Assembly (NCBI GenBank): GCA_963969495.1
Contig: OZ018333.1
Coordinates: forward strand, 85,849,256-85,913,255
Source of the DNA: Ceratothoa steindachneri
Taxonomy: Eukaryota > Arthropoda > Malacostraca > Isopoda > Cymothoidae
DNA: 64,000 bases
Direction: 5' to 3'
Shown here: positions 45,427 through 64,000 of the stretch, piece after piece
Position numbering within the stretch: position 1 is the stretch's first letter
Layout: every line of letters starts with the position of its first letter
Notes under the pieces: generated by a model
The model's input: only the letters and a program-made list of their open reading frames with translations
What the model was told of the DNA's origin: nothing
Databases searched by the model: none
Made by a program: the position numbers and the translations under genes

Positions 45427-47045
45427 ATGGAGTTGGAACTGAGAAGATGAAGTGAGTTATTGGGGCAGAAAGACAGAGAAAATGCGCAGTTGAGAGTAGA
45501 AAATGGTAGCTTGAAGAGGAAAATGAGAAAGATAGAAGTGAGAGTGGAAGCGAGGATTAAAGATGGTGAGGTGCGAATGGAGGAAAGATTGATGCGAATG
45601 TTGAATGAGAGAATGGGAGAATCAGGTGCAATTGGTGGTAGTGTGGCCTCTACTCCACTTAGAATGGTAATGACGGACAAAAATGGACTGACAGACTTAA
45701 ACGAACCCCCGCAAGTGACTAGGCACCAAAAAAGAAGACCTCAAAGACTAGAATCGCAGACCGACAGGAAAGGACCCAACTAGCTAGCATTAACTCTGTG
45801 TACTTCCGCTCAAATGAAGGCATGAGTGAAAGTGATGCTGAGGTTCATCAGAGTATATTGATCAGAGAAGTGCCAAAGTTAAGTAAGTTTAGAGTGAAAG
45901 GAACAAAAGATGTGAGTTTTTTCAAAGAGTATGAAAGTTATTGTAAGGAGAAATTTTGAGAGAATAATAGGTTTTGGGTGCAAGAGTTGGGCGAGTTTCT
46001 GGAAGGGCATTTAAAAGAGTTTTACCGGACGATTATGTGTGTGGGTGAGCCTAAGTGGGATGTTATGAAAGAGAGAATGATAGAGCAATGTAAGAGGATG
46101 AAGATGAGTGTGAAATATAAGATAAATGGGTTTGACAAAGTGAGAATGAGGAAGAATGAGGATGTGAATTCATATGCGCATCACTTAGAGGCCTTGGCGC
46201 GAATGAAATTCGGAGATGATGGAATAGATTAGAAATAAGGAGATGAAGTTGTTAAGTATGTAAGGTATAAAAGGAAAGAGAAAATGAGAAATGGGCTGGC
46301 GAGAGATGGCTATGGGAGGATGTACTGGAGATGTTAGAGGACCGTGAATTTGAGGATTATGGAAGGGAGGAGGCGTCAACTCACGCTATGTGCAACTCAA
46401 ATATGAGTAATTGCCCCAGTTCGAGTCATATCAGGGGCACTGGTAGAGAACAGGTCAAGATTTTGGAGAATTATAAGGACAGAATGAACAGCAGTGTGTG
46501 TATGTTGGCCGCAAACCAAAAGGGAATAAAAGTAGGAGCAAGAGGCGGCATGGTTGGCGTAAGGTTCAGAATATTCGGATTAGTGGTCACCTGAATGGTA
46601 GGAATAATAGTAGATCTGGAATGAATGAGCCTAGGTGTCTGAGGTGTAAGAAAGTTGGGCACATGAGGGCTCTCTGTCGCTGGTCACAAGGAAGTTGCTT
46701 GGGCTGTGGGCAATTGGGGCATATGATAAAAGATCATGGTTGTGCAAGAGAAAGAGCGTGTTATGGATGTGGAAGAATGAGACACTTGGCATGAGATTGC
46801 AGGGAAGGTGGTCGAGTGAATATGAGTGGACCTGGAGTATTTGTAATTGTGGGCAGATAGGGCATTATGCTAGGATGTGTGCCAGTCCAAAAATTACTGG
46901 TCGTAAGTGTAGAATGGTAGGTCATGCAACAAGGTTGTGTAGGACTGGTGATAGATGCGTGAATGAAAGAATTAATGGGAATGATGCAAGTAATCAAGAT
47001 GGTATGACTCAGGGAATGAGTGTGTTCCTTCTGGTGAATTCTTGA
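45427..47045 (+). pseudogene. Gag of Gy1
   Basis: ATG at 45427. A stop follows after a few codons; a 107-codon frame then holds a Glu/Arg/Lys coiled coil (45460-45600). From 45830 the capsid region reads KFRVKGTKDVSFFKEYESYC and, at 45978-46232, MKERMIEQCKRMKMS and VNSYAHHLEALARMKFG. Zinc-knuckle positions at 46635-46943 read CLRCKKVGHMRALC, CLGCGQLGHMIKDHGC, CYGCGRMRHLA, CNCGQIGHYARMC and KCRMVGHATRLC: five in all, some degenerate. Frames change three times. The protein would form the particle shell and package RNA. Confidence 0.75.
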
Positions 47046-47820
47046 GAGTGCAAGTGATGAATGTGAGAGAAGGATTGTCAAATTGGAGTGAATTGGGGTC
47101 AGAGAGTTAATAGGTATGTGTGTTAAAGTTAAATGTGGAGAACGAGAAGTAAGTGCATTGATTAATACAGGATGTAAGGTGAATGTGGTGTACTATGAAA
47201 CATTTGTGGGAATGAAAGTAAGTGAAGTTGAGGATCATGGATATCATTTAACTGGATTAGGTGAGCAGGATGTGCCGATTGTTGCGAGGTTTAGAGAGTG
47301 TGTTTTGATTGCAGGTGTCAGAATGAATAAGGATGAATTTTGTGCAGTAGAAGGTGTTATTAGGTTATAAGCTTTTGAGAGGGAATGGTATCATGATTCA
47401 CCTTGATGTAGAGATGATTGAATGTAAGAAGAATGGAAGTTTGAAGTGTCAATGGTATGTAGATCCAGATGGAAGTGTGAGAGTGAATATCATGAAATGT
47501 CTGGAGGTATATGCGATTGAGAGTGTGCCTGTTAAGTAGAATGAAACATTGAGTGTAAGGATTGGATAGAATTCTGATTCTGATGTTGAGATAAGTAAGA
47601 ATGATGGGAATATTTATGTCTTGGATGGTAGTACTGCAAACTATTGTTTTAAGCGAGTTGTGCATGTGCTTGAAGGTGTAATTGATATGAAAGATCCGCG
47701 TGTCTACATACAAGTTTGGCCTGATCTCGGAAGGAAGAGTTTGAGAGGTGTGCAAGTGGGAGATAAATTGGGTGTAGTAAATAGTGGTAAATATGGAGAA
47801 TGACACGCATGTGGTTAAGG
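47046..47820 (+). pseudogene. Retropepsin region of Gy1
   Basis: The frame at 47116-47370 contains ALINTGCKVNVVY, the active-site region, with Asn in place of the catalytic Asp seen in copy 2 (LIDSGCKMSLVY). The LLGY block follows at about 47355 (ILGY-like in copy 2). The frame at 47621-47803 is the linker to reverse transcriptase and includes IQVWPDLGRKSLRGVQVGD, paralleled by RVKGQVRGIQVGD in copy 2. Inactive. Confidence 0.7.
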
Positions 47821-48511
47821 CAAGTGTGTTTTCCGTGAGTGTAACATCAAATGTTTGGAAGTATGAAGATTTGATTGAGCAAGTGAAATTGGAAGAAAAG
47901 TTGAGTGAATGTGAGAAGTAAAATGTATACAGGATGTTGTGGAATAGGAGAGGTGCCTTGAGTCAAGGGGATGAAGACTTTGGCAATGCTCGCTTGCCTG
48001 AGTTCAGAATAATTTTGAGCAACGATACAGCAATTTATTAAAGGCCTCGACATTTCCCTATCCCCGTGGCTCAAGAGATGGAGGAACAGTGTGAGGAATT
48101 AGAGAGAATTGGTGTAATTGAGCCAAGTGTGAGTGTCTGGAATAGTCAGATTGTACCTGTACAAAAGCCAGATGGACGGTTGCGACTGTGTATTGACTAT
48201 AGAAGCATGAATGAACGAACATGAAAGACAAGTTTGCTATGAGTGTTGTGACTGAGTGTGTTTATGATATGTTTGGAATGAAACTATTTTCTAAGATGGA
48301 TCTGGTACATGGTTACTACCAGATGCTTGTGGCTGTTACGGCATTCTCATCTCAAAGCGCCATTATCAGTTTAGAAACCTGAGCTTTGGGTTGGCAAAGG
48401 CCCCGGCTGCTTTTCAGCGCACTAGGAATGTAGAGTTGAGTGGCTTTCCGTGTAAGAATGTAAGAGTATTTTTGGAAGATATTTTGTTGAGTGATTTTGT
48501 TTGTTTTATTT
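47821..48511 (+). pseudogene. Reverse transcriptase of Gy1, truncated
   Basis: Broken frames give SVWNSQIVPVQKPDGRLRLC followed by IDYRSMNERT (finger blocks) near 48130-48230, then KMDLVHGYYQM near 48300, and VFLEDILLSDF near 48465-48495 at the YxDD box, where Tyr-Ile-Asp-Asp has become Phe-Leu-Glu-Asp. The element stops there at the family A insertion. Confidence 0.75.
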
Positions 48512-57920: not shown

Positions 57921-58033
57921 CGTGAGGCCTTTTCTTTTCTTTGGATCCAGAATGTTTGTTATGCCTGTTTTGTATCCGAATTAGTGTAGGAAGCGGATTG
58001 GGGTGAGAGGATAGATTTTCGTGGCCTGCTACA
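57921..58033 (+). repeat. Deleted LTR copy next to the Gy2 LTR
   Basis: Begins gtgaggccttttcttttctt and ends gtgtaggaagcggattgggg...gcctgctaca, both shared with the following LTR but without its middle 170 bases. Confidence 0.65.
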
Positions 58034-58034
58034 A

Positions 58035-58319
58035 TGTGAGGCCTTTTCTTTTTGTTTGGATCCAGTGTACTTATTAGGCCTCTTTTGTATCGTTGTTTGT
58101 GTGTATATAAATTATTGATTGGAGAGAGTATTGTTTTTTTTTAGTAACGAGATCTCCAAATTATTTACCCCATATCTATTGTAAATATTATTGTAATGGT
58201 TTTGTGAATACAGGACTGTACATCCAATCGTTTCATTCTCCATCGGGTTCTCACATCCGACTTAGTGTAGGAAGCGGGTTGGATAGATTGAGGTTAGTGT
58301 AAGTTTGTGGCCCGCTACA
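58035..58319 (+). repeat. 5' LTR of Gypsy copy 2
   Basis: Starts TGTGAGGCC and ends GGCCCGCTACA, so it has TG...CA ends. The primer site begins two bases later. No 3' LTR lies in the window. Confidence 0.6.
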
Positions 58320-58320
58320 T

Positions 58321-58339
58321 TGGGCGACCGAATAGGGAC
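58321..58339 (+). promoter_or_regulatory. Primer-binding site of Gy2, tRNA-Lys type
   Basis: TGGGCGACCGAATAGGGAC resembles the tRNA-Lys site with one inserted G and two substitutions. It corresponds in position to 45329-45346 of Gy1. Confidence 0.6.
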
Positions 58340-58451
58340 GCGAGATCTCGAAACCGGGAGCGTGACAGGATTAGATTGCAGTCTGTCATCAGATAGGACG
58401 GAGTTGGTTGTTTTTTTCCCTTCTTCTGTCCTTTATTACTAACCTGGGAGG

Positions 58452-60040
58452 ATGGCTTCTGTGGAACAGGGCCTACATGATTAGATTGTGAGACTGAGGC
58501 TGGAGTTGAGGCAGAAGGAAGAGGAATGTACAATGTTGAGGAGTGTGATTGAGGGATTAAAGAGTGATATGATGAGTATGGATGAGAAGACGGACAGGAT
58601 GAAGAAATGGACGAAAGACAAAGGCAGGTTGACCAAAGAATGCAAGACCTATATGACATGATGAAGTGGTCAGGACCAGCCCAAGGACCCTCAACCCTGA
58701 CACCTGCTTACACTGAAGGTGATAAGTAGAATGGGATGAGTGGAAGTGTATGCAATTCTAGAGAAGACAGGATGATTGTGAGTGATAGGAAGGAAGGAGA
58801 ATCGAAGAGAGTGGAAGGCAAGAGAGGAAGGAAGATGGGGTCAAAGGGGAAGGATCGGAATGTGAGAGGAAAGAGTGTAGACTCGTTGTACTCGGATGAA
58901 GGAGAGAGTGAGAGTGAAGTGAATGTGGGGAAAGGAATTTTGATTAGCAAAGTCCCAAAAGTTGATAGGTTCCAATTGCATGGTAGTAAGAGTGTGGGAG
59001 AGTTCTTCGGGGAGTTTAAACGCTATTGCAAGCTAAAATACCCGGAGAATAAGGGATACTGGATGAATGTTTTAGGGAAGTGTTTGGATGGAAAAGTACT
59101 AGAATTCTTCCGACTGATAACGAGTGTGGGGGAACTGAGGTATGAGGTGGTGAAGGAGAGATTGATTGGACAGATGAAACGAATAAAAGAGTGTGAAGTA
59201 TAAAAGGGTTAATGAATTTGAGAAGGCTTGCATGGAAAAGAGTGAAAGTGTGAACATGTATGCACATAGGCTTGAGAGTTGGCGATAAAGAGGTATGGTG
59301 ATGATGGTGTGAATGAATGTAAGCAATTGATGAGAAAGTTCCTTGATATGGTCCCGCAAAAGATAAGTGAATGGCTGAATGGGAAGAGAAAGGAGAGGAT
59401 GAGACTGACAGGTGAATGGTTGGTGTGGGTGGATGTGTTGGAGCTTCTGGAAGATGGGCAATTTGATAAGGATAGATGGTATAGTGTGAATGTTGGGGGT
59501 AAGAAGCCCAGGAGCTTTCCTCCACCACAGCAGTTTGTCAGCTATCGGGATGCTCTGAGGGCTGCGCTAGCTGGGGTGATGTAGAGTTTCCTCGGCTGGC
59601 AGACTGGCTTGGCAGATGGAAGTGGGCAGATGAGTGGTAAGCGTGTGAATGGGTATAAGAGGGAACAACCGAGGTATATCCCAGTGAATGAGAGGCAGAA
59701 TGGAGTGAAAAGGAATGTGAAGTGTCATAGTTGTGGATGAAAGGGACATGTGCTGGCTGAATGCAGATGGATGTCTGGTGCATGTTTTGCATGTGGAAAG
59801 AAGGGCCATATGGTGAAAGATTGTCAGGAAAGTGTGAAGGAATGTTTCGAGTGTAAAGAGAAGGGCCATTTGAAGAGAGACTGTCCGAAGTTAAATGGTG
59901 GAGCGACTGCTGGGGAAAGTATGAAGTATGCTTGTGGTAATTGCAGAAAGGCTGGTCTTATGCGAGGATGTGTCGTGACAAGAAAAATGTATGTAGCTAT
60001 TGTGCAATGGAAGGACATTTGAGTGAAAAGTGTTGAATTA
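58452..60040 (+). pseudogene. Gag of Gy2 with five zinc knuckles
   Basis: ATG at 58452 opens a coiled-coil start (LRLELRQKEEECTMLRSVIE). At 58736-59203 a 155-codon frame gives a Ser/Lys/Glu-rich spacer then capsid blocks RFQLHGSKSVGEFFGEFKRY and VVKERLIGQMKRIKE. Frame breaks follow, with MYAHRLESW near 59260. Knuckles at 59723-60034 read CHSCG-KGHVLAEC (stop inside), CFACGKKGHMVKDC, CFECKEKGHLKRDC, CGNCRKAGLM-RGC (His lost) and CSYCAMEGHLSEKC. Gypsy Gag proteins usually carry one or two. Gag would package the RNA and form the particle. Confidence 0.8.
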
Positions 60041-60186
60041 GACTGAGAGCGCAAGGTGTGAATGGAAAGTCTGAAGCGGGAAACTCAAGTTTAAGAGTGT
60101 ATCTGCTGAAGTATCCTCTGGGTGCATGAGTGCGAGTAATGTGTTGGTAAGTCTGTCTAGTGTGAAAGTGCTGTCTGGTAGGAAAT

Positions 60187-60640
60187 ATGAGTGTAAAGGT
60201 TGAATTGGATAGGATTGAGTGTTTGGATTTGATAGATTCTGGATGCAAGATGAGCTTGGTATATAAGGATGTGTACGACAAGCTGAGTGATAAAACCTTC
60301 CTGTCTAAGTTTAAAGGTAGTTTGGGAGGAATTGGTGGTATGAGAGTGCTTGTGATTGGAATGATAAGGTCAGCTGTTCAAATGTGTGGTATGTGATGAA
60401 TGAGTGTGAATTCTCTGTGATTGATAAGGTGAGTAGTGAGTATGGTGTGATTTTGGGGTATGATTTTATGAAAATGAATCGTATAGTTGTGCATACTGCG
60501 AGTGATCAGATTGAGAGAAAGATTGGTAAAAATGGGGTGTATAAGTTGTATGTAGGGAAAGATGGTAGTGTTTTGAGGAGTGTGTTTACTGCTATGGAGA
60601 GTGTAAGGCTTGTGAAGGGTGAAAGGGTGTGTTAGAGTGA
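60187..60640 (+). pseudogene. First retropepsin of Gy2
   Basis: The frame at 60187-60396 contains CLDLIDSGCKMSLVY, with the catalytic Asp in DSG. After one frame change, 60384-60635 contains VILGYDFMKMN, the conserved ILG block of retropepsins. It stands in the usual place, between Gag and reverse transcriptase, and would cut the polyprotein. The two halves are out of frame. Confidence 0.75.
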
Positions 60641-61095
60641 ATTGAAGTAAGGATCTGAGTTTGAATGTGGGTGAGAAGACTGCATTATTTGATGGAAAGG
60701 GTGCATATTATAAGGTAAGGCGTGTTGCTTGGTGTTTGATGGCTTGATGAGAATGAATGATACTTTTGTATGTATGCAGGTGAACCCCAGAGTGAAAGGG
60801 CAGGTGAGAGGGATCCAAGTTGGCGATGTACTGGGTCACCTCTCCACTGTAAGTGAGGCAGGTGTGGATGATTGTACTGATGTCAGGTAAATGTTGTGAA
60901 TGAAGAGACGTATAATGAAGTGGAAAGAATGGTTAAATTGGATGAATGTTTGACTGAATATGAAAGGGAGGATGTGTATCAAATGCTGTTTGAACGAAAG
61001 GGGGTCCTCATTAAGGGCGATCTGGATTTTGGGGTTGCAAAGTTTCTGGAATTCAAGATTGTTCTGAAGGAGGACACCCCAAATCTATCAGTGGC
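60641..61095 (+). pseudogene. Linker before RT in Gy2
   Basis: Contains RVKGQVRGIQVGDVLGHLS near 60800-60850 and a frame at 60896-61123 with LTEYEREDVYQMLFERKGVL and LEFKIVLKEDTPNLS, the usual stretch ahead of Gypsy reverse transcriptase (Lys/Asp spacing before the HxI block). Confidence 0.6.
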
Positions 61096-61765
61096 CGAGA
61101 CATTTCCCACGTGCGGTTGCTGATTTGATTGAAAAGCAGTGTTTGGAATTAGAACAATTGGGGGTGATTGAAGAAAGTTAGAGTGCATGGAATAGTCTGA
61201 TTGTGCCTGTACGTAAGCTGGATTATCGAAAGGGGAACGAAAGAACTGTGAAAGAGAGGTTTCCAATGTGTGTGGTATCTGAGTGTGTGTATAATATGCA
61301 TCGGATGAAGTGGTTTACAAAGCTGGATCTGGTACAGGGGTATTACCAGATGCCCATTGCTAAGGTGAGCCGACCGGTGACTGCCTTTTCCTCCATGAAG
61401 AGGCATTATCACTTCCAAAACCTCAGCTTTGGGTTGGCTAATGCTCCCGGTGCCTTCCAGCGGGCAATGAATGTTGTGTTGAGTAAGTTTGCGAGTAAGA
61501 ATGTGATTATGTTTATAGATGATACTTTGATCATGACAGAGTTTTGAGGAGCATATAAGATTGGTGAATGATGTGTTGAGAAAGTTGGTGAGTGTTGGTG
61601 TGAAGGTGAAAGTAGCAAAGTGTGAATGATTTGCGAAAGAAGTGGAATTCCTTGGGCATATGGTGAGTGAGAATGGGTTACGAAAGTTGCTGAAGTATGT
61701 TGAGAAGGTGCGCATGTTTCCAAAACCAGGGACTGTGAAGCAACTTTAGTCATTTTGGGGTCTGA
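61096..61765 (+). pseudogene. Reverse transcriptase of Gy2
   Basis: Blocks in order: SLIVPVRK, then a short deletion where copy 1 has PDGRLRLCIDYRS, then FTKLDLVQGYYQMPI (motif A, catalytic Asp kept), HFQNLSFGLANAPGAFQRAM (motif B), VIMFIDDTLI (motif C, both Asp kept, about 61508-61530). After a stop at 61546 the thumb continues in shifted frames with EVEFLGHMVSENG. It would copy the RNA into DNA. Damaged by the deletion and the stop. Confidence 0.85.
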
Positions 61766-62330
61766 TTGAATTTCAGCGGAAGTTTATATGTGATTGTTAA
61801 GGGATTGTTAAGTAAGTTTCTGACTGAGTGGACAGGCAAGAAAAGTAGTACGATTGTCAGGTGGAATGATAAGATGAATGAAGCATATGAGAGACTGAAA
61901 GAGGCAGCGGCTGAAGATTTTGAATTGGCATACCCGGACTATAGTGTGAATGCTAAGATGCTTGAATTGTATACAGATGCGAGTGGATACTGTATGGGAG
62001 GTTTTTTGATGCAAGAGCAGCGCTTGAATGGAGAGAATGTCAGGCAAATAATTGGGTATGTATACAAGGCTATGAATGCAGCAGAGCAAGACTTGGCTGT
62101 GTTAAGGTATTTTTTGAAAGTTTTGTTTTTGTATGGTGTGAGGTTCGTGATTAAAACAAATCATCAACCTCTTGTGTATTTGCAACATATGAAATGGGCT
62201 GATAGTAGGATTGCGAGGACTTTGGAAGATTTGAGTGAGTTTGACTATATGATTTGAGTACATGCCTGGTGAATGGAATGGAGTGGCTGATTTGATGTCA
62301 ATGTATCCTGGTACAAATGATGAAAATGTG
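61766..62330 (+). pseudogene. RNase H of Gy2
   Basis: A 163-codon frame (61766-62257) reads NEAYERLKEAAAEDFELAYP, then LYTDASGYCMGGFLMQ (first Asp), MNAAEQDLAVLRYF (Glu) and VIKTNHQPLVYLQHMK, where the usual third Asp (TDHxxL) is Asn. After a one-base shift, YMPGEWNGVADLMSMYPG gives the conserved PGxxNxVADxLSR-like end. It would degrade the RNA strand of the hybrid. Confidence 0.85.
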
Positions 62331-62340
62331 TGTGGAGTGA

Positions 62341-62753
62341 GTGATCCTGAGTATTTGCCAAAAGGGATTATGAATGTAAAGGAGAGTAAGGGTGGAGGTG
62401 ATTCCTTGTTTGAGAGCGTATGGAATGGTTTGCAAGATTTAAGAGTGGAGTAGATGAGAGAGTACCCAATAGTGTGGATGATTTAAGGAAGGAGGTAATG
62501 AGTGAAGTATGTAGGAAGCCAGAAAGTATTGGTATAGCGAAGGTGTGGAACTTTATGAAAGAATTGAGAGCGATGTGTATGCAAGGGGTCCTGCCATTTC
62601 AGGAAGTGTTGATTGTAGTTAGTCGTTTGTATGGAGTGATTGTTTATGTGCACTTTGGTGCTGAGAGGCCGATTGTGTACAAGGATGAGAAAGTGGAGTT
62701 TGAATGCTAATGTGGTACATCTGCAGTGTTTGAGTGGTGTGCATTACAATTAG
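62341..62753 (+). pseudogene. OTU-like cysteine protease domain in Gy2
   Basis: After the RNase H end the frame reads LPKGIMNVKES then GGGDSLFESVWNGL, matching the P-x-G and DG(N/D)CLF start of OTU proteases with Ser (tcc, 62403-62405) in place of the catalytic Cys (one base from tgc). After a frameshift near 62430 it continues with SVDDLRKEVMSEVCRKPESI (the xxLRxxVxxYI block), CMQGVLPFQEVLIVVSRLYG and VIVYVHFG (the GxWGxxxxLxAxAxxxxxxIxV block), and, after a second shift, VVHLQCLSGVHYN with the catalytic His-Tyr. OTU enzymes remove ubiquitin or process polyproteins. This copy is inactive. OTU domains are known in some non-LTR retrotransposons and plus-strand RNA viruses; I am unsure of precedents in Gypsy. 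Confidence 0.72.
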
Positions 62754-63330
62754 GTGATTGAAAAGTGTTCATATATGAGGGAGAAGAATGATTGTCTGGA
62801 TAAAAATGAGTGTGTGGTGAGTGATGATGTGGGAGTTGATGACGGTGTGGATGTCAGTGCTGATGTTGGTATGGTTGTTCCTACTGTGTATTGTGAACAT
62901 GGTGGACCTGATATGATGGAAGCAAGAGTGAAAGTTGGTGAAAGGTTCTTCTGTGGCTTGATTGATACTGGAGCGCAAGTGTCATTAGTGAACGAGAAGA
63001 TTCTGAGTAAGTATGATGAGTTTAGATGTTGCGAGTATAAGCCTGTGAAGTTACGGATAGGTGGATTGGGGAATGGAATGAGAGAGGCATGGAAACAGGT
63101 TAGTCTGAGAGTGAGTTTGGGCAGCAGTATGAATGTGAAGCATGACTTTGTGATTCTGAAAGATGAGCAAATGCCAGGTTGTTTCTTTCTCGGTGTGGAC
63201 TTTATGAGATTGAATGATTTGTCTTTAGGTGCTGATAGGGATTGTGTTATGAAAGGTGAATGTGAGGTGATGAGGTTGAATGAGTATGTGAAGAATGTTG
63301 TCAAGTTTTGCAGTATGATCGAATTGGTCA
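62754..63330 (+). pseudogene. Second retropepsin of Gy2, between OTU and integrase
   Basis: A single open frame (62754-63620) starts right after a TAG that follows the OTU HYN motif in the same frame. It has an Asp-rich leader, then RFFCGLIDTGAQVSLVNEKI (62940-62999) with the catalytic DTG, a flap-like stretch, and PGCFFLGVDFMRLNDLSL near 63175-63228, the ILG block. This is a complete retropepsin-like fold with intact catalytic Asp, distinct in sequence from the first one. It lies where no Gypsy protease is expected. Confidence 0.75.
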
Positions 63331-63735
63331 TGGATGATGAGAATAGGATTTTAAATAATGATAATATTCTAGAGATGAAAGAGATGTGTCCTTTTGTCAG
63401 TGAGTTGAAGAAGTGTGTGATGACGCATGTTGATTTGAATGAATGGCCAGAGTGTTTAAGTGATTTTAAAAGGTATGCTAAGGATTTTATTGTTTGTATG
63501 GATGTTGTATATTTTGTGAGGCATGTGAAGGGTGGTGATGATATGTATGTACCTGTGATGTCCTTGGTTGGTATGATTGGTCTGGTGAAAGTTGTGCATG
63601 ATAATTATGGGCAAGTTTAATTTGTGGGAGTGTATGTAGAAGCATGTGTTCCATCCATTTCTGAGGATGTTGTAAATGATGTTGCAACTATGTGTGAAAG
63701 GTGTCAGAAGCAAAAGGTGCAGCCTGTTAGTACAC
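63331..63735 (+). pseudogene. Integrase N-terminal zinc domain of Gy2, truncated
   Basis: The frame continues with LKKCVMTHVDLNEWPECLSD, YVPVMSLVGMIGLVKVVHDN and YGQV, then after a stop and shift VEACVPSISEDVVNDV and MCERCQKQKV: the H-x-H and C-x2-C pairs of the integrase HHCC domain. The catalytic core that should follow is absent; unrelated sequence begins near 63735. Confidence 0.75.
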
Positions 63736-64000
63736 TACTCTTAATAAAATTGTATTATTAACTTTTTATGTTTTAGTATCAGGTGGAATTCCTTAAGAAT
63801 TCAAGAATGAACCTGATAATGTGTGATAAATTGAAATACGTTTTATGCATAGTACAATGGCATTTTAGGTCATGACTAGCAGCTGCTAGAAACGAGCATT
63901 GGATAAAGATGTAATTTGAGGATAAAACTGTTTTTGCCTGATTGTTTCTAAAGCAATGGCCAAGGGGAAAGTAAAAGTCTTTTATTATATTAAATCATAT
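63736..64000. other. AT-rich flank, no gene seen
   Basis: No coding signal. It marks the break point of Gypsy copy 2. Confidence 0.5.

Follow-up and report, generated by a model that had tools for sequence, protein, structure and literature searches.

The principal finding of this work is a Ty3/Gypsy clade that appears to carry, within pol, a domain of OTU fold and, behind it, a second retropepsin-like domain. In the OTU-like domain, the putative nucleophile is a conserved serine, and a His and an Asn take the corresponding OTU positions. The explanation that we favour overall, with a probability of about 0.6, is that this conserved Ser-His-Asn OTU-like domain engages ubiquitin, a ubiquitin-like protein (UBL) or a peptide of pol. 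The place, conservation and copy number of the domain are direct observations. One Ty3/Gypsy copy lies on the plus strand at about 58.3-63.72 kb of the window, that is, the whole stretch of 64,000 nucleotides of Ceratothoa steindachneri DNA that was analysed. It presents the Ty3/Gypsy order protease, reverse transcriptase (RT), RNase H and integrase together with gag zinc knuckles, the integrase being represented in the window copy by its start only:

58730..59203, plus strand: gag fragment, an open piece (tblastn match to 45663-46103 in the window's other gypsy copy, 2.3e-27)
59783..59884, plus strand: two CCHC zinc knuckles (PF00098, 1.8e-10, two stretches, in the translation of 59741-60019)
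60166..60480, plus strand: first retropepsin (PR1), broken in the window copy, with DSG at about 60235 (sequence reading)
61182..61547, plus strand: reverse transcriptase piece (PF00078, 3.3e-16)
61766..62257, plus strand: RNase H piece (PF17917, 2.4e-13; PF17919, 5.4e-11)
62343..62774, plus strand: predicted OTU-like domain, decayed (sequence, open host copies, profile and fold of relatives)
62391..62411, plus strand: GGGDSLF, with the Ser codon tcc (62403-62405) at the OTU catalytic Cys position
62736..62750, plus strand: GVHYN, with His (62742-62744) and Asn (62748-62750) at the positions of the OTU His and third triad residue
62919..63236, plus strand: second retropepsin-like domain (PR2), DTG at 62964-62972 (PF00077, 0.0023)
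about 63587..63721, plus strand: integrase start, H2C2-type finger, broken (sequence; PF17921/PF00665 in relatives)

The first piece is named gag from its place ahead of the zinc knuckles, and the last (about 63587-63720) we take, by our own reading, to be an H2C2-type integrase finger; matches to the integrase models PF17921 and PF00665 were obtained in relatives. Homology shared with four other copies stops at 63721 (88-89% identity, blastn). No protease Pfam match was found for PR1 in the translated pieces of the window copy, and the domain is clear in relatives, for instance at residues 79-170 of P0018 (1.7e-16). The window also holds a second decayed gypsy copy (45663-48489), 38% identical in gag and 53-64% in RT to the window pieces above, whose RT DNA is 70-72% identical to open copies of the OTU-bearing element. 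On the element sense strand the GC skew amounts to +0.47 to +0.56 (window 58001-64000 and 46001-48000), C being very scarce.

The initial annotation had placed an OTU-type domain between the RNase H and the integrase of a Ty3/Gypsy pol, based on the motifs GGGDSLF, DDLRKEV, VIVYVHFG and VHYN, and all four were recovered in place, in OTU order and past the RNase H. DDLRKEV and VIVYVHFG lie in a second frame (62414-62710), and VHYN ends at 62750 in the first frame with a stop directly after it; two frame changes and a stop right behind HYN within 62343-62774 indicate that the window copy is dead. The proposed location within pol is supported by the RNase H upstream (PF17917) and the integrase finger downstream. 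A separate nested insertion, which that annotation had named as an outcome that would overturn it, was rejected, since the Ser motif shares one open frame with the DTG of PR2 in 17 of the 28 host loci L001-L028, and 35 relatives from other sources carry the domain. In these loci, the motifs stand in open frames of 98 to 1125 codons, and in L004 a frame of 521 codons covers RNase H, OTU and PR2. Searches of the 3.93 Gb genome were evaluated on 40 of 2514 first-look candidates at the DNA level and on the best 150 of 7350 candidates at the protein level; none of the best 150 has a stop inside the OTU domain, and an open frame of 1782 aa is the commonest length among them (29 copies). A protein search with the 521-aa frame returned no relatives, whereas the longer natural frame did find them, and none was found in IMG/VR. 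According to precomputed Pfam columns, RVT_1 is present in 25 of 32 relatives. Judged from these sequences, the architecture of the clade is PR1-RT-RNase H-OTU-PR2-integrase in a single pol frame.

The assignment to the OTU fold depends on the relatives as a group. A profile check of the translation had been suggested by the initial annotation, and its outcome was divided: no OTU match was found at E up to 1 in a Pfam search of the translated window pieces, nor for a single open host copy searched alone, while the profile of the relatives matched OTU above chance. This profile (A1), which leaves out P0003, P0010 and P0013, the last being a near copy of P0012, matched the PDB entry for OTUD3 at 8.1e-4, and seven of 30 members matched PF02338 at E up to 1, the best at 8.7e-5. 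Its match to four canonical-type OTU domains of the same genome covers just the 25 columns around the nucleophile motif and reached 90.9%, compared with at most 1.0% in 20 column shuffles and 0.2% for the trimmed OTU alignment against PR2. In the fold searches, OTU domains fill the best 50 rows of each search made with the predicted structures, the nearest being OTUD3, yeast Otu2, DUBA/OTUD5 and OTUD1 (the four best structural rows share 14-18% identity with the domain); prediction from a single sequence was poor (pLDDT 47). A chance or convergent likeness of some unrelated linker fold of pol would agree with the failure of single host-family sequences to match any OTU model, but it is countered by the profile, the fold and the shuffle controls, and we consider it very improbable. 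Both profile and predicted structure point to an OTU fold, which is predicted with good support, and we hold the homology of the domain to OTU to be nearly certain. A magnesium chelatase model also matched residues 200-235 of the open frame, where the OTU domain starts (9.1e-5), with 20.2 bits against a cut-off of 1166, and this was taken as chance. In the precomputed Pfam columns, OTU is listed for none of the 35 relatives; as Pfam likewise missed the domain in the single host sequences scanned, it may be unannotated elsewhere.

The active site of OTU enzymes is formed by a Cys nucleophile, a His and a third triad residue. The domain described here lacks the catalytic Cys of OTU cysteine proteases (PF02338), and the initial annotation had explained the Ser of the window copy as decay from an active Cys ancestor. 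That copy is indeed decayed, its tcc is one base from tgc, and OTU as a whole uses Cys, hence a Cys ancestor at some depth. However, Ser occupies the Cys position in all 51 distinct host copies (58 loci minus 7 duplicates; these are the best-scoring copies and biased to young ones), of which 49 have the His. Across the genome, 2867 exact motifs have Ser (control 0), against 72 with Phe, Tyr or Cys (56, 12 and 4, respectively; control 1); Cys motifs are no commoner than other single-step variants, the pattern expected from decay of a Ser codon. Among the relatives with the motif, Ser was found in 31 of 33, Cys in two and other residues in none, the count covering 33 of 35 relatives because the frames of P0003 and P0010 begin at or inside the domain. 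Trees were built from the rows with more than 200 residues upstream (27 and 30 rows); in that of the upstream RT-RNase H part with 30 rows, midpoint-rooted and sampled from the relatives that the searches returned, the two Cys rows, P0028 and P0033, sit apart within Ser branches, so that two changes are needed. On these sequences, Cys-bearing elements may nevertheless exist at the root of the clade. P0028 may be a damaged copy, since its PR2 has DGG instead of D[TS]G; P0033 has a frame of 1885 aa and DTG in PR2. Decay of Cys was therefore rejected for the window copy, Ser being the rule in host copies and relatives, and we assign it next to no probability. What had been anticipated for intact copies was seen for the His, which is kept, and not for the Cys, which is replaced by Ser. 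Taken together, the distribution of residues argues that Ser at the Cys position is a maintained state and not a product of decay.

The remaining columns of the site are also conserved. Among the relatives and the query, His is found in 32 of 33 rows and Asn in 33 of 33, two residues apart, as the OTU His and the Asp/Asn that follows it two residues on. The one row with Tyr in place of the His, P0024, ends soon after the domain (940 aa) and may be damaged or cut off. GGG is invariant (31 of 31 rows, with the query), so that the Asp of DGxC, three residues before the nucleophile, is replaced by Gly in every one of them. The invariant columns include, besides GGG, Arg50, Gln130 and Asn138, and Asp20, Ser21 and His136 are kept at 90% or more; this is what would be expected of a groove that still binds the tail of a substrate.

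Directly downstream of the OTU segment, the window copy has an open frame of 288 codons whose middle resembles a retropepsin, a second retropepsin-like domain that was absent from the initial annotation. In the window, its match to RVP (PF00077) has 18.6 bits, below the cut-off of 20.7. Among rows with letters at these positions, all 32 have the PR2 Asp and all 31 the Gly of the second motif, so that the retropepsin pattern (D[TS]G followed by hydrophobic-hydrophobic-Gly) is found, with exceptions at the middle residue of the first motif in P0028 (DGG) and P0035 (DCG). Profiles of PR1 (23 pieces) and PR2 (30 pieces) matched in hhalign at 99.7% (4.2e-27), although the pieces were chosen by a D[TSC]G-type motif, which favours their match; blastp among 32 proteins, free of such choice, also pairs PR2 with PR1 in P0016 (5e-6), P0014 (1.5e-5) and P0002 (2e-5). 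These matches suggest that the relatives carry two retropepsin-like domains, one ahead of RT and one behind OTU. Between the host family and P0001, identity amounts to 73% in RT-RNase H, 62% in OTU, 25% in the linker, 47% in PR2 and 68% in integrase, so that the OTU domain is kept there nearly as tightly as integrase. All identities are lower in farther relatives, e.g., 53, 36, 11, 28 and 41%, respectively, for P0014, and in each of the 12 relatives compared the OTU domain resembles that of the host family more closely than does the linker that follows it.

Other OTU domains exist in the same genome. A PF02338 search gave 65 matches, and the Gypsy domain was not found among the 16 examined. 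Fifteen of these (L059-L072 and L074) form one family with a canonical-type OTU, common in this genome, which we tentatively label Helitron-like by a downstream motif. One of its members, L060, has a Pfam OTU match of 2.7e-11 and no Helitron domain in the stretch scanned. Another, L072, reads GGGNSLF against GDGNCLF in most of its kin, so that Cys to Ser and Asp to Gly changes occurred there too, probably by decay. The sixteenth, L073 (G000:C6:49840606-49841978), is an OTU-like open stretch with GDGNCF, unlike the other 15, and is either a piece of a host gene or another element.

Compared with known systems, the Gypsy domain shares with the OTU cysteine proteases (PF02338) the whole fold, as predicted, the nucleophile position and the positions of His and Asn/Asp, and differs from them in having Ser in place of Cys and Gly in place of the DGxC aspartate, and in its retrotransposon pol setting. 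Ginger1 DNA transposons are reported to join a Gypsy-like integrase with OTU, as here, with the OTU placed C-terminal to the integrase and alternating with Ulp1 (PMC2836005); the present element has RT and RNase H, and its OTU lies upstream of the integrase. Helentrons and animal Helitrons are likewise described as mobile elements with OTU (PMC4067079; PMC6431247); they are rolling-circle elements with the canonical Cys motif, in which the Gypsy domain differs, and a scan of the window pieces and of an open host frame found no Rep/helicase match. Adintoviruses, which have a retrovirus-like integrase, are reported to carry an OTU-like domain in their replication protein PolB (PMC11071296), although these are DNA polymerase B elements and the Gypsy family is reverse-transcribing. 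LTR retrotransposons with a dUTPase are described as carrying an extra enzyme-like domain within pol, but another domain (PMC6431247). In the portions consulted of the open-licence literature on OTU with retrotransposons, LTR elements or Ser variants, no OTU domain in a Ty3/Gypsy pol was found; it may be described elsewhere, e.g., in Repbase reports.

Serine at the catalytic Cys is reported for the Drosophila OTUs CG3251 and Otu, of the OTUD4 family (PMC4654579), as in the Gypsy domain; these are host genes, whereas in the present case a divergent clade of mobile elements has Ser as its usual residue. According to the same source, both proteins showed no activity in vitro, even with Cys restored, Cys to Ser changes recurred in OTUD4-family members of several insects and a pufferfish, and serine-protease deubiquitinases had not yet been described as of 2015 (PMC4654579). 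However, Otu acting jointly with Bam reportedly removes ubiquitin from Cyclin A (PMC10621935, citing Ji 2017). For SERA5, a papain-like protein with Ser, one report describes a non-enzymatic protein with no proteolysis found (PMC4671257) and an earlier one a chymotrypsin-like activity (PMC3265493). On the whole, most reports describe the Ser variants of clan CA folds as inactive, but others disagree.

We infer ligand, catalysis and role of the domain from these data. Its conserved site is quite probably functional in some way, as the columns suggest, and the domain would keep a function centred on the active site, in which the OTU groove holds the C-terminal tail of ubiquitin, of a ubiquitin-like protein or of a pol peptide. 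For catalysis speaks that solely Ser and Cys were seen, interchanging; against it, that the Asp of DGxC is gone and that the Drosophila Ser OTUs are inactive in vitro. Considering this loss and the conflicting reports on Ser variants, we put catalysis at somewhat under an even chance and a pure binder lower still. Such a pseudo-enzyme would be a non-catalytic OTU-like binder of ubiquitin, UBL or chromatin-bound ubiquitin, used for example in steering the integration complex or recruiting a host factor, with Ser kept as a small polar residue of the groove. This tentative alternative agrees with the inactivity reported for CG3251 and Otu (PMC4654579) and in one of the two reports on SERA5 (PMC4671257), with the lost aspartate and with the position of the domain beside integrase, but it is at odds with the absence of Ala, Gly and Thr at a position where the 33 relatives have either Ser or Cys, with the almost invariant His and Asn, and with the reported action of Otu with Bam (PMC10621935), by which a Ser OTU may be active when a partner is present. 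We also hold, no less tentatively, that the domain could be a natural serine-type OTU hydrolase that arose by an ancient Cys to Ser switch and has a working Ser-His-Asn site, used alongside two aspartic proteases on ubiquitin, UBL or the element's own pol. Within our preferred reading, a domain engaging ubiquitin, UBL or a pol peptide, a slow or narrow Ser-type hydrolase would be slightly likelier than a pure binder, and the domain would probably serve the polyprotein or integration complex of the element itself, e.g., by taking off or recognising ubiquitin marks.

Helentrons and Ginger1 were already known as mobile elements with OTU domains; the domain described here lies inside a Ty3/Gypsy pol together with a second retropepsin. 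Its nucleophile appears to have become Ser and to have been retained as such across a divergent Gypsy clade, and the many natural Ser-type OTUs, together with the two nested natural Cys ones, offer material for asking whether OTU works with Ser. The finding also suggests that ubiquitin may take part in the replication of LTR retrotransposons.
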